Assembly (NCBI GenBank): GCA_945881735.1
Contig: CAMCVF010000002.1
Location: 1 to 64,000 of the forward strand
Length of the DNA stretch: 64,000 bases
Origin: Methylotenera oryzisoli
GTDB lineage: Bacteria; Pseudomonadota; Gammaproteobacteria; Burkholderiales; Methylophilaceae
Reading direction: 5' to 3'
This document shows, one piece after another, positions 50,252 through 53,037 of the stretch. The notes below the pieces were generated by a model, which searched no databases, was not told the origin of the DNA, and worked only from the letters and a program-made list of their open reading frames with translations. The translations under genes were made by a program, and so were the position numbers. How positions within the stretch are numbered: the first letter of the stretch is position 1; each line of letters begins with the position of its first letter.

Positions 50252-50641
50252 TTAATGTTTAAAATACTGTATCAACATAAAACCAAGAGCAGTCATCAAC
50301 AAGCTACCAATCACATGGCTGGCAATATGGCTAAAAGCCCAAGCATATTGTTGTTTATGTAAAAAATTAAACGCCTCTGCCGAAAAGGCTGAAAAGGTGG
50401 TTAAGCCGCCTAAAAAACCTGTCATTACAAATAAGCGCAATTCATGTTGATGTGGCGTAGTTATAAAATAAGCCAATGCCATGCCCATTAATAAGCCACC
50501 ACTTAAGTTGGCGATTAAAGTGCCCATCGGCAACATACTGGCATTAAGCGCGATTCCTAGACCCCAACGTACCCAAGCCCCTAAAGCTGCACCACCACCT
50601 ACTGCTAGCCATTGTGATGCTAAAAATTTTCCTATCGCCAT
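50252..50641 (-). CDS. crcB: Fluoride efflux channel CrcB/Fluc
   Basis: A 129-residue membrane protein with four transmembrane segments. It has the family motifs GAALGAWVRWGLG (helix 1), PMGTLIANLSGGLLMGM (Asn for the channel) and GFLGGLTTFSAFSAEA (Thr/Phe box lining the fluoride path). A homodimeric F- channel. The ATG at 50641 matches family length. No fluoride riboswitch was recognised in the 95 bp upstream. Confidence 0.92.
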   Translation of the reverse strand: MAIGKFLASQWLAVGGGAALGAWVRWGLGIALNASMLPMGTLIANLSGGLLMGMALAYFITTPHQHELRLFVMTGFLGGLTTFSAFSAEAFNFLHKQQYAWAFSHIASHVIGSLLMTALGFMLIQYFKH

Positions 50642-50736
50642 ATTTTGCTTTCTGTTTAAAAATAATTTACCTATTAAAAAATAGAGCACTTAGCCACTAT
50701 AATAGGCAATATACCCATTTATTTGAAGAGAATATT

Positions 50737-52197
50737 TTGCGCGTTTTATTTGCCACCTCTGAAGCCTTCCCTCTTATTAAAACTGGCGGCCTTGCTGATG
50801 TTAGCGGTGCGTTACCCAAAGCGATTAGACAGTTAAGTACGTTTAAGGGTGATATTAAGTTAGTCATGCCTGGCTATAGCGCTGTTTTAGCTAAACTTAA
50901 ACATGTTGAAACAATTGCCAATATCGATGTGCTTGGCGAAACATGTACAATTTTGACGGGCACAATACCCGGCACTGTTTTAGATGTGATTGCCATTAAA
51001 AATGAAGCGCTGTATGAACGTGCTGGCGGCCCATACTCGGATGAAAATGGCAAAGACTGGCTAGATAATGCCTTGCGTTTTGGTGTGCTATCACGCGTAG
51101 CAAGCTTGCTGTGTAGCGCGAACAGTCCACTACCCAATTGGCAGCCAGATTTGATTCAATGCAATGACTGGCAAACAGGCCTAGCACCTGCCTACATGAA
51201 ACTACTAGACAACTCTACAACCAAGTCTATTTTTAGCATTCACAATTTGGCGTTTCAGGGTAATTTTCATGCGAATTGGCTCACTAGGCTTGAGCTTCCT
51301 GCGGCCCATTTTCAAATCAATGGGTTTGAATACTTTGAACAAATTTCGTTTTTAAAGGCAGGACTTTTTTACGCCGATCAACTAAGTACTGTTAGTCCAA
51401 CCTATGCACAAGAAATTCAAACGGAAAGCTTAGGCTTTGGCTTGCAAGGTCTACTACAAACGCGAAGCAACGATTTAACGGGCATTTTAAACGGAATAGA
51501 TACGCAAGAATGGAATCCTGAGCTTGATACGCATCTGCCCAAAAATTACAGTAATCAACGCATTACTGGCAAATCAGCCGTTAAAAAAAAATTACAACAA
51601 CAACTAGGGTTTCAAATTGATGCACACGCCCCATTATTGGGCATCGTCAGTCGACTTACGCATCAAAAAGGATTGGATTTATTACCATCCATCATGCCAC
51701 AACTCATTAATCAAGGTTGCCAATTTGTTATTTTAGGCAGTGGTGATAAAGCATTAGAAGCGAGCTTTACCGATTTAGCAAAACGCTTTTCTGATCAAGT
51801 CAGCATGAATATTGGCTATCACGAACATCTATCACATAACATCATTGCAGGTGCTGATATCTTTATAATGCCATCGCGTTTTGAACCTTGCGGTTTAAAT
51901 CAATTATATGGGCTAGCTTATGGAACACCCCCAATCGTAACGGCTACAGGCGGATTGGCGGACTCGGTAACCGATACCAATGACGCAACATTTAAGAATA
52001 ATACGGCGACTGGTTTTGTGTTGAAATCTGTCACTTCAGCATCACTTTTGACCACTATTCAGCGTGCGCTAAAAATCTGGAAAGACAAAACGGATTGGCG
52101 TAAGATTCAGAAAAATGGCATGAGTCGCGAGGTCAGTTGGGAGTTTAGCGCGCAGTTTTATTTAGATTTGTATAAAAAAACGCTATCAACGCATTAG
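50737..52197 (+). CDS. glgA: Glycogen synthase
   Basis: A 486-residue GT5 enzyme. The ADP-glucose-binding LIKTGGLADVSGALPKA is near the N-terminus. FSIHNLAFQGNF, LNGIDTQEWNPELD and the C-terminal MPSRFEPCGLNQLYGLAYGTPPIV (catalytic Glu) follow. It elongates glycogen from ADP-glucose. TTG at 50737 is chosen because family proteins begin M-R-V-L-x-x-x-S-E; the frame is open 41 codons further upstream without conserved sequence. It is separated from the glgC/glgB cluster by about 9 kb. Confidence 0.92.
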   Translation: MRVLFATSEAFPLIKTGGLADVSGALPKAIRQLSTFKGDIKLVMPGYSAVLAKLKHVETIANIDVLGETCTILTGTIPGTVLDVIAIKNEALYERAGGPYSDENGKDWLDNALRFGVLSRVASLLCSANSPLPNWQPDLIQCNDWQTGLAPAYMKLLDNSTTKSIFSIHNLAFQGNFHANWLTRLELPAAHFQINGFEYFEQISFLKAGLFYADQLSTVSPTYAQEIQTESLGFGLQGLLQTRSNDLTGILNGIDTQEWNPELDTHLPKNYSNQRITGKSAVKKKLQQQLGFQIDAHAPLLGIVSRLTHQKGLDLLPSIMPQLINQGCQFVILGSGDKALEASFTDLAKRFSDQVSMNIGYHEHLSHNIIAGADIFIMPSRFEPCGLNQLYGLAYGTPPIVTATGGLADSVTDTNDATFKNNTATGFVLKSVTSASLLTTIQRALKIWKDKTDWRKIQKNGMSREVSWEFSAQFYLDLYKKTLSTH

Positions 52198-52205
52198 GGT
52201 AAAAA

Positions 52206-52223
52206 GTTGGCACGGCTGATGCT
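52206..52223 (+). promoter_or_regulatory. Sigma-54 (RpoN) promoter
   Basis: GTTGGCACGGCTGATGCT has GG at 52209-52210 and GC at 52221-52222 with exactly 10 nt between, matching TGGCAC-N5-TTGC at all but one consensus base (A for T in TTGC). It is intergenic, 9 bp after the glgA stop, and points to a predicted start at about 52234, just upstream of a compact terminator-ended RNA. The required enhancer-binding protein site was not identified. Confidence 0.7.
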
Positions 52224-52233
52224 TAATTATAAT

Positions 52234-52300
52234 TAAGCTTCTCCAAAGCTAGCTTCTCCTCCCTAGGGGTATAACCTATTCGTTATGCCCCCTTTTTTTG
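52234..52300 (+). ncRNA. Candidate sigma-54-dependent small RNA with anti-SD motifs
   Basis: A predicted RNA of about 65 nt from the sigma-54 start to the terminator. Hairpin 1 is AGCTT (52236-52240) with AAGCT (52246-52250) and a CTCCA loop. A single-stranded AGCTTCTCCTCCCT (52251-52264) follows, then the terminator stem. AGCTTCTCC occurs twice. The CUCC/CUCCUCCC segments are complementary to Shine-Dalgarno sequences, as in CUCCUCCC-type regulatory sRNAs. No peptide frame is evident. Expression and targets are untested. Confidence 0.55.
52266..52299 (+). terminator. Strong terminator between glgA and orn
   Basis: GGGGTATAAC (52266-52275) pairs with GTTATGCCCC (52282-52291), one G-T pair, loop CTATTC, then C and seven T's. 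It ends the candidate sRNA and probably glgA readthrough. Confidence 0.9.
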
Positions 52301-52342
52301 GGCGGGAATTACAAGTTATTTTTCACAAAAATTGATAACAAC

Positions 52343-52915
52343 TTACTTAACTATAAAATGTTCGCGATAATATTTAAGCTCATCAATTGATTCGTAAATA
52401 TCGGCAAGGGCTTCATGCTTACTGGTTTTTTTAAATCCCGAGTAAATGCTTGGTTTCCAGCGACGCGCAAGCTCTTTAAAAACGCTCACATCTAAATTGC
52501 GGTAATGAAAAAAACTTTCTAAATCTGGCATATACCGTGCCATAAATCGTCTATCTTGGCAGATAGAATTGCCACACATGGGCGATTTACCTTCAGGCAC
52601 ATATTGCTTTAAAAAGGCAATCATCTGCTCAGTAGCCACCTGCTCATCTAAGGTTGAGGCTTTTACTTTTTCAATCAAGCCACTACGACCGTGTGTGCCT
52701 TTATTCCAAGCATCCATGCCTTCTAAGACGCTATCGGCTTGATGGATGACTAACACTGGTGATTCACCTAGTACATTTAAATCTGCGTCGGTTACCACGG
52801 CAGCAAGCTCCAAGATACGGTCACTGTCAGGCAGCAACCCGCTCATTTCCATGTCTAACCAAATTAAGTTGTCATTTGATTTTAAATTGTCTTTATTGCT
52901 GCTTAAAGCGGACAT
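52343..52915 (-). CDS. orn: Oligoribonuclease
   Basis: A 190-residue DEDDh 3'-5' exonuclease. The motifs are WLDMEMSGL (Exo I), [19 protein letters not shown] (Exo II region) and [19 protein letters not shown] (Exo III). It degrades 2-5 nt RNA fragments, including pGpG. ATG 52915 is chosen because GGAAA lies at proper distance; in-frame ATGs at 52918 and 52927 are alternatives. Confidence 0.94.
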
Positions 52916-53037
52916 CATGATTTCCATTAATTCGATTAAAATATTTAAATTATCGCACTTTATTTGAACGTATAGCGCTCAAATGCTTCACAATAACATA
53001 ATATTTAATTTTTAATGTTTTGGCGATTAACTCTATT

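Follow-up and report, generated by a model that had tools for sequence, protein, structure and literature searches.

Among the small RNAs (sRNAs) that depend on RpoN (σ54) are Qrr, CrcZ, and GlmY. GlnZ is described in PMC9731577 as another RpoN-dependent sRNA, which derives from the glnA 3′ untranslated region (UTR) and belongs to the NtrC regulon. RNAs of a second kind carry complements of ribosome-binding sites and so can be called anti-Shine-Dalgarno (anti-SD) sRNAs. The Rfam family RF02278, represented in Burkholderia cenocepacia by ncS03, ncS05, ncS27, and ncS62, comprises RNAs of 57 to 92 nt in that species, and the related literature describes post-transcriptional repression of BP2158 by S17 (PMC4603805, PMC5688073, PMC11722255). 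According to PMC5362039, Neisseria NmsRA represses prpB, prpC, and genes of the TCA cycle, and PMC10746234 presents Sinorhizobium NfeR1 (alpha-r14) as a multi-target anti-SD sRNA tied to NtrBC.

We analyzed a 64,000-nucleotide stretch of DNA from Methylotenera oryzisoli (hereafter, the window), in which the gap between glgA and orn holds a predicted sRNA that can be compared with each of these systems as the cited sources describe them. RF02278 and Bordetella S17S resemble it in being short and betaproteobacterial, in their C/U-rich complements of ribosome-binding sites, and in having a hairpin followed by a terminator. However, in the eight RF02278 loci that we compared by eye, seven of which scored above cut-off, UCUCCUCC comes first and the C/U-rich loop after it, an order that is reversed here, and upstream of these eight loci we saw only σ70-like sequence and no −24/−12 site. 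NmsR A and B also carry two anti-SD motifs, but they form a pair of RNAs with −35/−10 promoters, lie between dsbB and lrp, and are linked to relA. NfeR1 differs in having three hairpins, each with CCUCCUCCC, and a σ70 promoter repressed by NtrC; instead of this alpha-r14 layout, the locus studied here has one 5′ hairpin with a CUCCA loop and a terminator. GlnZ and NrsZ share σ54 control with the predicted RNA, and GlnZ also lies downstream of a metabolic gene, but both involve other genes and GlnZ answers to NtrC.

Titles and abstracts, in a search that mostly did not cover subscription journals, yielded no publication on this RNA; at the same level we found no PilR-driven sRNA in the literature. 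The main text of PMC3728764, on the transcriptomes of three Methylophilaceae, does not contain the terms “small RNA,” “non-coding,” or “intergenic.” On balance, we consider it probable that the locus encodes a trans-acting sRNA of about 65 nt that would be started by σ54, activated by PilR, and probably assisted by Hfq in blocking ribosome-binding sites, and that would represent a new family of the Methylophilaceae.

Results

The predicted RNA lies between glgA, encoding glycogen synthase (50614 to 52197, forward strand; NCBIfam NF001899 above cut-off), and the convergent downstream gene orn, encoding oligoribonuclease (52343 to 52927, reverse strand; NCBIfam NF003765 above cut-off), with the start codons of both genes being uncertain. 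The original prediction had placed in this gap a near-consensus RpoN site of the form GG-N10-GC, two copies of an SD-complementary motif, and a terminator stem, all of which we recovered on the forward strand. The −24/−12 promoter TTGGCACGGCTGATGCT occupies 52207 to 52223, with GG at 52209 and 52210 and GC at 52221 and 52222, and AGCTTCTCC occurs at both 52236 and 52251. Assuming a start 12 to 14 nt past the −12 GC, the predicted RNA would extend from 52235 to 52299. Its 5′ hairpin, AGCUU-CUCCA-AAGCU (52236 to 52250), presents the first anti-SD motif in the loop, the second motif lies in the single-stranded AGCUUCUCCUCCCUA (52251 to 52265), and the predicted intrinsic terminator (52266 to 52299) consists of a 10-bp stem (52266 to 52291) followed by C and seven T residues, giving a U7 tail. 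The 67 nt from 52234 to 52300 folded with −19.1 kcal/mol (z score of −4.24; none of 200 shuffles equaled it), and the predicted fold agreed with the earlier description in placing CUCCA in the first loop and leaving CUUCUCCUCCCU unpaired.

Taken alone, the promoter match is weak by single-genome counts. Within the window, TGGCACGN5TGC with up to two mismatches was observed 63 times versus 58.6 expected. Genome-wide, TTGGCACGN5TGCT had one mismatch-free match and, with up to one mismatch, 18 places versus 10 for a reversed-pattern control. Since such a match is unremarkable within a single genome, the case rests on conservation.

A blastn search with a 111-nt query that included the promoter matched 17 of 61 genomes, the genome of origin included, and all 17 loci keep TGGCA-N7-TGC and the RNA layout. 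Because this set had been picked with a promoter-containing query, we built a covariance model, R1, from the RNA alone. R1 matched the genome of origin at 52235 to 52298, and the matches extended to 117 of 187 family genomes, 89 of the 119 good ones, and 19 of 24 genera. We analyzed 122 of the 123 match places and found the strict pattern TGGCA-N7-TGC within the 45 nt upstream of 117 of them; outside the training set, it was kept at 100 of 105. By comparison, the pattern turned up in 0.05% of shuffles and in 40 of the 11,337 45-mers taken from other parts of these loci. Three of the five matches that lack the strict promoter also lie away from the glgA-orn place. Promoter positions that had not been selected for also fit the consensus, with TGGCA being followed by Y in 112 of 112 cases and then by R in 111 of 112, and with the two T residues after TGC being present in 109 and 106 of 112, respectively. 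The earlier proposal of a compact sRNA with its own σ54 promoter, for which a covariance search in the family and conservation of GG and GC in relatives had been named as tests, was thus supported, and the loss of the −24/−12 bases from close relatives that had been named as refuting it was not observed.

The gene order glgA-RNA-orn was found at 105 of the 122 places, whereas seven had only glgA, three only orn, and seven neither (contig ends included). An order-wide search with R1 matched 7 of 300 genomes, five of which belong to the Methylophilaceae, so the RNA appears close to family-specific. We also scanned public genomes for the promoter plus two CTCC motifs and obtained 103 stretches; among the 80 of these that were listed, 42 carry family names, and the other listed stretches come from proteobacteria without finer assignment or from scattered taxa.

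Conservation extends to the layout of the RNA. In 88 of 117 matches, TGC and the first CTCC-type motif are 17 to 19 nt apart, and a hairpin with UCC in the loop was present in 84 of the 93 different 5′ ends, a few of these 84 having long loops, compared to 10.9% of mononucleotide shuffles. The 5′ stems show compensatory changes (AGCTT/AAGCT, TGCTT/AAGCA, AGCTTA/TAAGCT, and AAGTCT/AGACTT). For the second motif, 93 of the 117 matches have CTCCTCC, 11 have CTCCCC, and 13 have just CTCC; in the terminator, four of the six consensus stem pairs show changes to both bases in one or more of 17 relatives. We considered and rejected as a separate element an inverted repeat, GCTT..AAGC, between the −12 region and the RNA, as its ends are the GCTT of the promoter and the AAGC of the RNA; by eye, the spacing between them is larger in part of genus g7.

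Four genomes contained a second R1 match: G096 (L181 and L264), G097 (L194 and L263), G092 (L215 and L229), and G149 (L219 and L254). In each, both copies have the σ54 pattern and one copy has neither glgA nor orn beside it, and the second copies are probable paralogues. Genera g14 and g16, with genomes of 0.7 to 1.4 Mb, gave no R1 match; rpoN was found in both of the genomes tested from these genera (G027 and G029).

No Rfam family reached its gathering threshold within the window. RF02278 was not among the seven Rfam matches up to an E value of 10 for 52150 to 52400, and it had no match at an E value of 0.001 anywhere in genome G000 (threshold of 50 bits). The suhB/mmgR family RF00519 scored 18.4 bits (E value of 0.12), below its 41 bits. 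Because the promoter and layout are conserved, no Rfam threshold was reached, and the RNA is distinct from RF02278, it most likely constitutes a new family of predicted σ54-driven anti-SD sRNA. Weak RF02278-like matches below cut-off were present in two genomes of the same genus, at G005:C65:80218-80277 (30.6 bits) and G011:C61:49586-49635 (31 bits), and because of these matches the two genomes may encode a second anti-SD sRNA.

The machinery for σ54-dependent transcription is widespread, with rpoN being found in 61 of 61 genomes, the genome of origin included. This genome encodes four clear σ54 activators: NtrC, which matched its NCBIfam model above cut-off; a regulator at L035; a regulator at L036, which we take from its gene context to be PEP-CTERM-like and for which TIGR02915 scored below cut-off; and a regulator at L037. 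The L035 regulator had no NCBIfam equivalog above cut-off, but because the adjoining kinase has the 6TM_PilS domain (PF25323), we regard it as a putative PilR, a name taken from its PilS neighbor only. The genome also encodes hfq, and the predicted RNA has a U-rich 3′ tail.

We found a candidate enhancer for this promoter inside the end of glgA. Over approximately the last 65 glgA codons, synonymous sites are more conserved than further upstream in the genus of origin and in g20; g7 did not show this pattern, and the four g11 genomes gave no clear signal. The alignment of this region shows CACTTTTGGTCAC, and the corresponding candidate in the window (52029 to 52055, forward strand) consists of TGTCAC at 52029 and CACTTTTGACCAC at 52043. 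Among 116 loci, CACTTTTGGTCAC was exact in 28, had one mismatch in 3, two in 5, and three or more in 80; the two-mismatch set includes the copy in the window, and two of its five members lie elsewhere. Downstream controls and shuffles never fell below three mismatches. The three alignment windows over CACTTTTGGTCAC were the most conserved ones both in g20 (of 164 windows) and in g1 and g20 combined (of 149), and the CACTTTTGGTCAC window ranked 19th of 286 in the genus of origin alone. The element is missing from g7 (0 of 43), although the promoter and RNA are kept there, and it has diverged in G007, which likewise keeps the promoter and RNA.

To score this element we used a weight matrix from 30 relatives, with the genome of origin excluded, and 252 background windows, all 252 of which scored below the site in the genome of origin. 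Among 18 σ54-like sites of that genome, the promoter of pilA (TGACACTTTTTGTCAT), a gene identified by Pfam PF00114 and PF07963, came second, a score reached by 1 of the 252 background windows; given the 17 other sites tested, each at 1 in 252, such a score would arise by chance about once in 15 tries. PilR had been proposed as the activator before pilA was identified. The upstream spacing of [TG]GTCA, which was 10/11, 20/21, 30/31, or 40/41 in 51 of 58 spacings and in 2 of 8 spacings from control stretches, is suggestive only, because most of these sites fall within homologous codons of glgA and so do not count independently. As described in PMC6058289, the hallmarks of PilR sites are TGT-N11-AGA and GTCT elements, to which the glgA element is only loosely similar. 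From the one pilA promoter in this one genome, we tentatively propose PilR as the best single candidate for the activator.

The same σ54-driven sRNA might respond instead to NtrC, the L036 regulator, or the L037 regulator, which we consider rather unlikely. All three are present in the genome, g7 keeps the RNA without the element, and a different palindrome, GCAAACTGTTA..TAACAGTTTGC, is found in four g11 genomes; on the other hand, the next-best σ54-like site for the conserved element in its own genome is the pilA promoter (n = 18), and we recognized no NtrC-type site in reading the alignments, which were not scanned systematically. The nitrogen signal proposed originally is not supported, as the element resembles that of the pilA promoter. 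A surface signal, here a putative type IV pilus signal, fits better than nitrogen, given the pilA-like element and the presence of pilS-pilR. The g11 palindrome lies in the gap between glgA and the promoter at all four loci (L218, L222, L226, and L238), from −102 to −70 relative to TGGCA, and may be a different enhancer or an operator.

We also weighed whether the RNA could be the 3′ UTR of the glgA mRNA, cut free by an RNase at the terminator of glgA and owing little or nothing to σ54. The position of glgA would allow this, as the gene precedes the RNA on the same strand in 112 of 122 matches and the forward strand from 51900 to 52500 has no terminator-like site other than that at 52266 to 52299; there are also precedents in Bordetella S17S, described as a processed 67-nt short form (PMC11722255), and in the origin of GlnZ from a 3′ UTR (PMC9731577). 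Yet cleavage would have no need of the −24/−12 bases that are kept in 100 of 105 matches outside the training set. Moreover, glgA and the promoter are 95 to 240 nt apart in 22 of 110 loci, and by eye a terminator-like hairpin stands between them in g15 and g18. We therefore regard release from the glgA mRNA as improbable and retain a σ54-started sRNA as the preferred reading.

The original prediction also cast the RNA as a global translation regulator that sequesters SD sequences. We found a single GGGAGGAG-N3-12-ATG in the genome, where this full 8-nt complement stands before prpC, encoding methylcitrate synthase, and four occurrences of GGAGGAG-N4-12-ATG versus two for the control (ATG starts only); of the four GGAGGAG starts, that of prpC alone leads into a long frame, and the frames of the other three have 31, 11, and 19 amino acids. 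The prpC ribosome-binding site GGGAGGAG (L272, 1501 to 1515) is the sole perfect complement of the second motif before an ATG. As a target, prpC is attractive because NmsRA represses prpC through anti-SD motifs.

As a conserved target, however, prpC was rejected. PrpC matched in 110 family genomes, of which the partial G124 and G063 were left out (108) and G144 had no start (107); the starts were chosen by script, and a few look misplaced. GGGAGGAG was present before 1 of these 107 starts, that of the genome of origin, and GGAGGAG before prpC in two more genomes (G021 and G026), with most prpC ribosome-binding sites being generic purine runs. The predicted duplex between sRNA and prpC ribosome-binding site was hardly better for own pairs (−15.67 kcal/mol) than for swapped pairs (−15.40 kcal/mol), with the own pair lower in 41 of 78. 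Both were better than shuffled RNAs (−12.78 kcal/mol), as any SD complement would be. Family-wide, GGGAGGAG-N4-11-ATG gave 53 matches in 31 g16 genomes and 19 in 15 genomes of the genus of origin; since g16 has no R1 match and yet 53 such starts, this count is uninformative on targets.

These results make it very unlikely that the RNA is directed at ribosomes globally and sequesters SD sequences in general. The motif does contain CCUCC, as does the 16S anti-SD core (PMC10783764), but the extended complement is rare before ATG (one GGGAGGAG and four GGAGGAG, with prpC as the only long frame), and at prpC most ribosome-binding sites have generic purine runs. The SD-complementary motifs themselves, in the loop and in the single strand, are kept in relatives; what fell away is the global role, with the full complement being found at one ATG start that is conserved in 1 of 107. 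A σ70 promoter formed by TTGGCA, 15 nt, and TATAAT (52228 to 52233) is more improbable still: TATAAT is present in the sequence and a spacer of 15 gave at least five matches in 21 of 112 loci (a spacer without shuffle control), but this spacer is short for a σ70 promoter, spacers of 16 to 18 gave at least five matches in 3 of 112 versus 6.65 in shuffles, and the TGC and Y/R positions have no σ70 role.

Discussion

Sequence and conservation show the promoter, the terminator, the layout of the RNA, the gene order, and the upstream element, the last of these being conserved in two genera; from these we infer transcription, the use of Hfq, translational repression, targets, and PilR as the activator. 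In the mechanism that we propose, the type IV pilus regulator PilR, from the two-component system PilSR, would act from the element inside the glgA end, σ54 RNA polymerase would initiate 12 to 14 nt past the −12 GC, and transcription would end at the predicted intrinsic terminator. The resulting RNA would expose two C/U-rich motifs, one in the 5′ hairpin loop and one in the single strand just before the terminator, which would pair with purine-rich ribosome-binding sites in a restricted number of mRNAs and keep these from being translated, with Hfq probably assisting the RNA in trans. It is possible, although we hold this broader view with some doubt, that the RNA acts across the family as a PilSR- and σ54-dependent anti-SD sRNA that couples surface or pilus sensing to translational repression through an enhancer within the glgA coding sequence.

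For the Methylophilaceae, these analyses provide a defined and conserved predicted sRNA within reach of one Northern blot. The locus is also a compact possible case of a σ54 enhancer embedded in a coding sequence, and if PilR drives the RNA, type IV pilus signaling would gain an RNA arm.

We additionally observed near-identical tandem type IV pilin genes at L002 (1612 to 2037 and 2273 to 2698), with a σ54-like promoter before the first of them only. Among the loci examined, these two pilins were the only frames with GFTLIEL[MLV].
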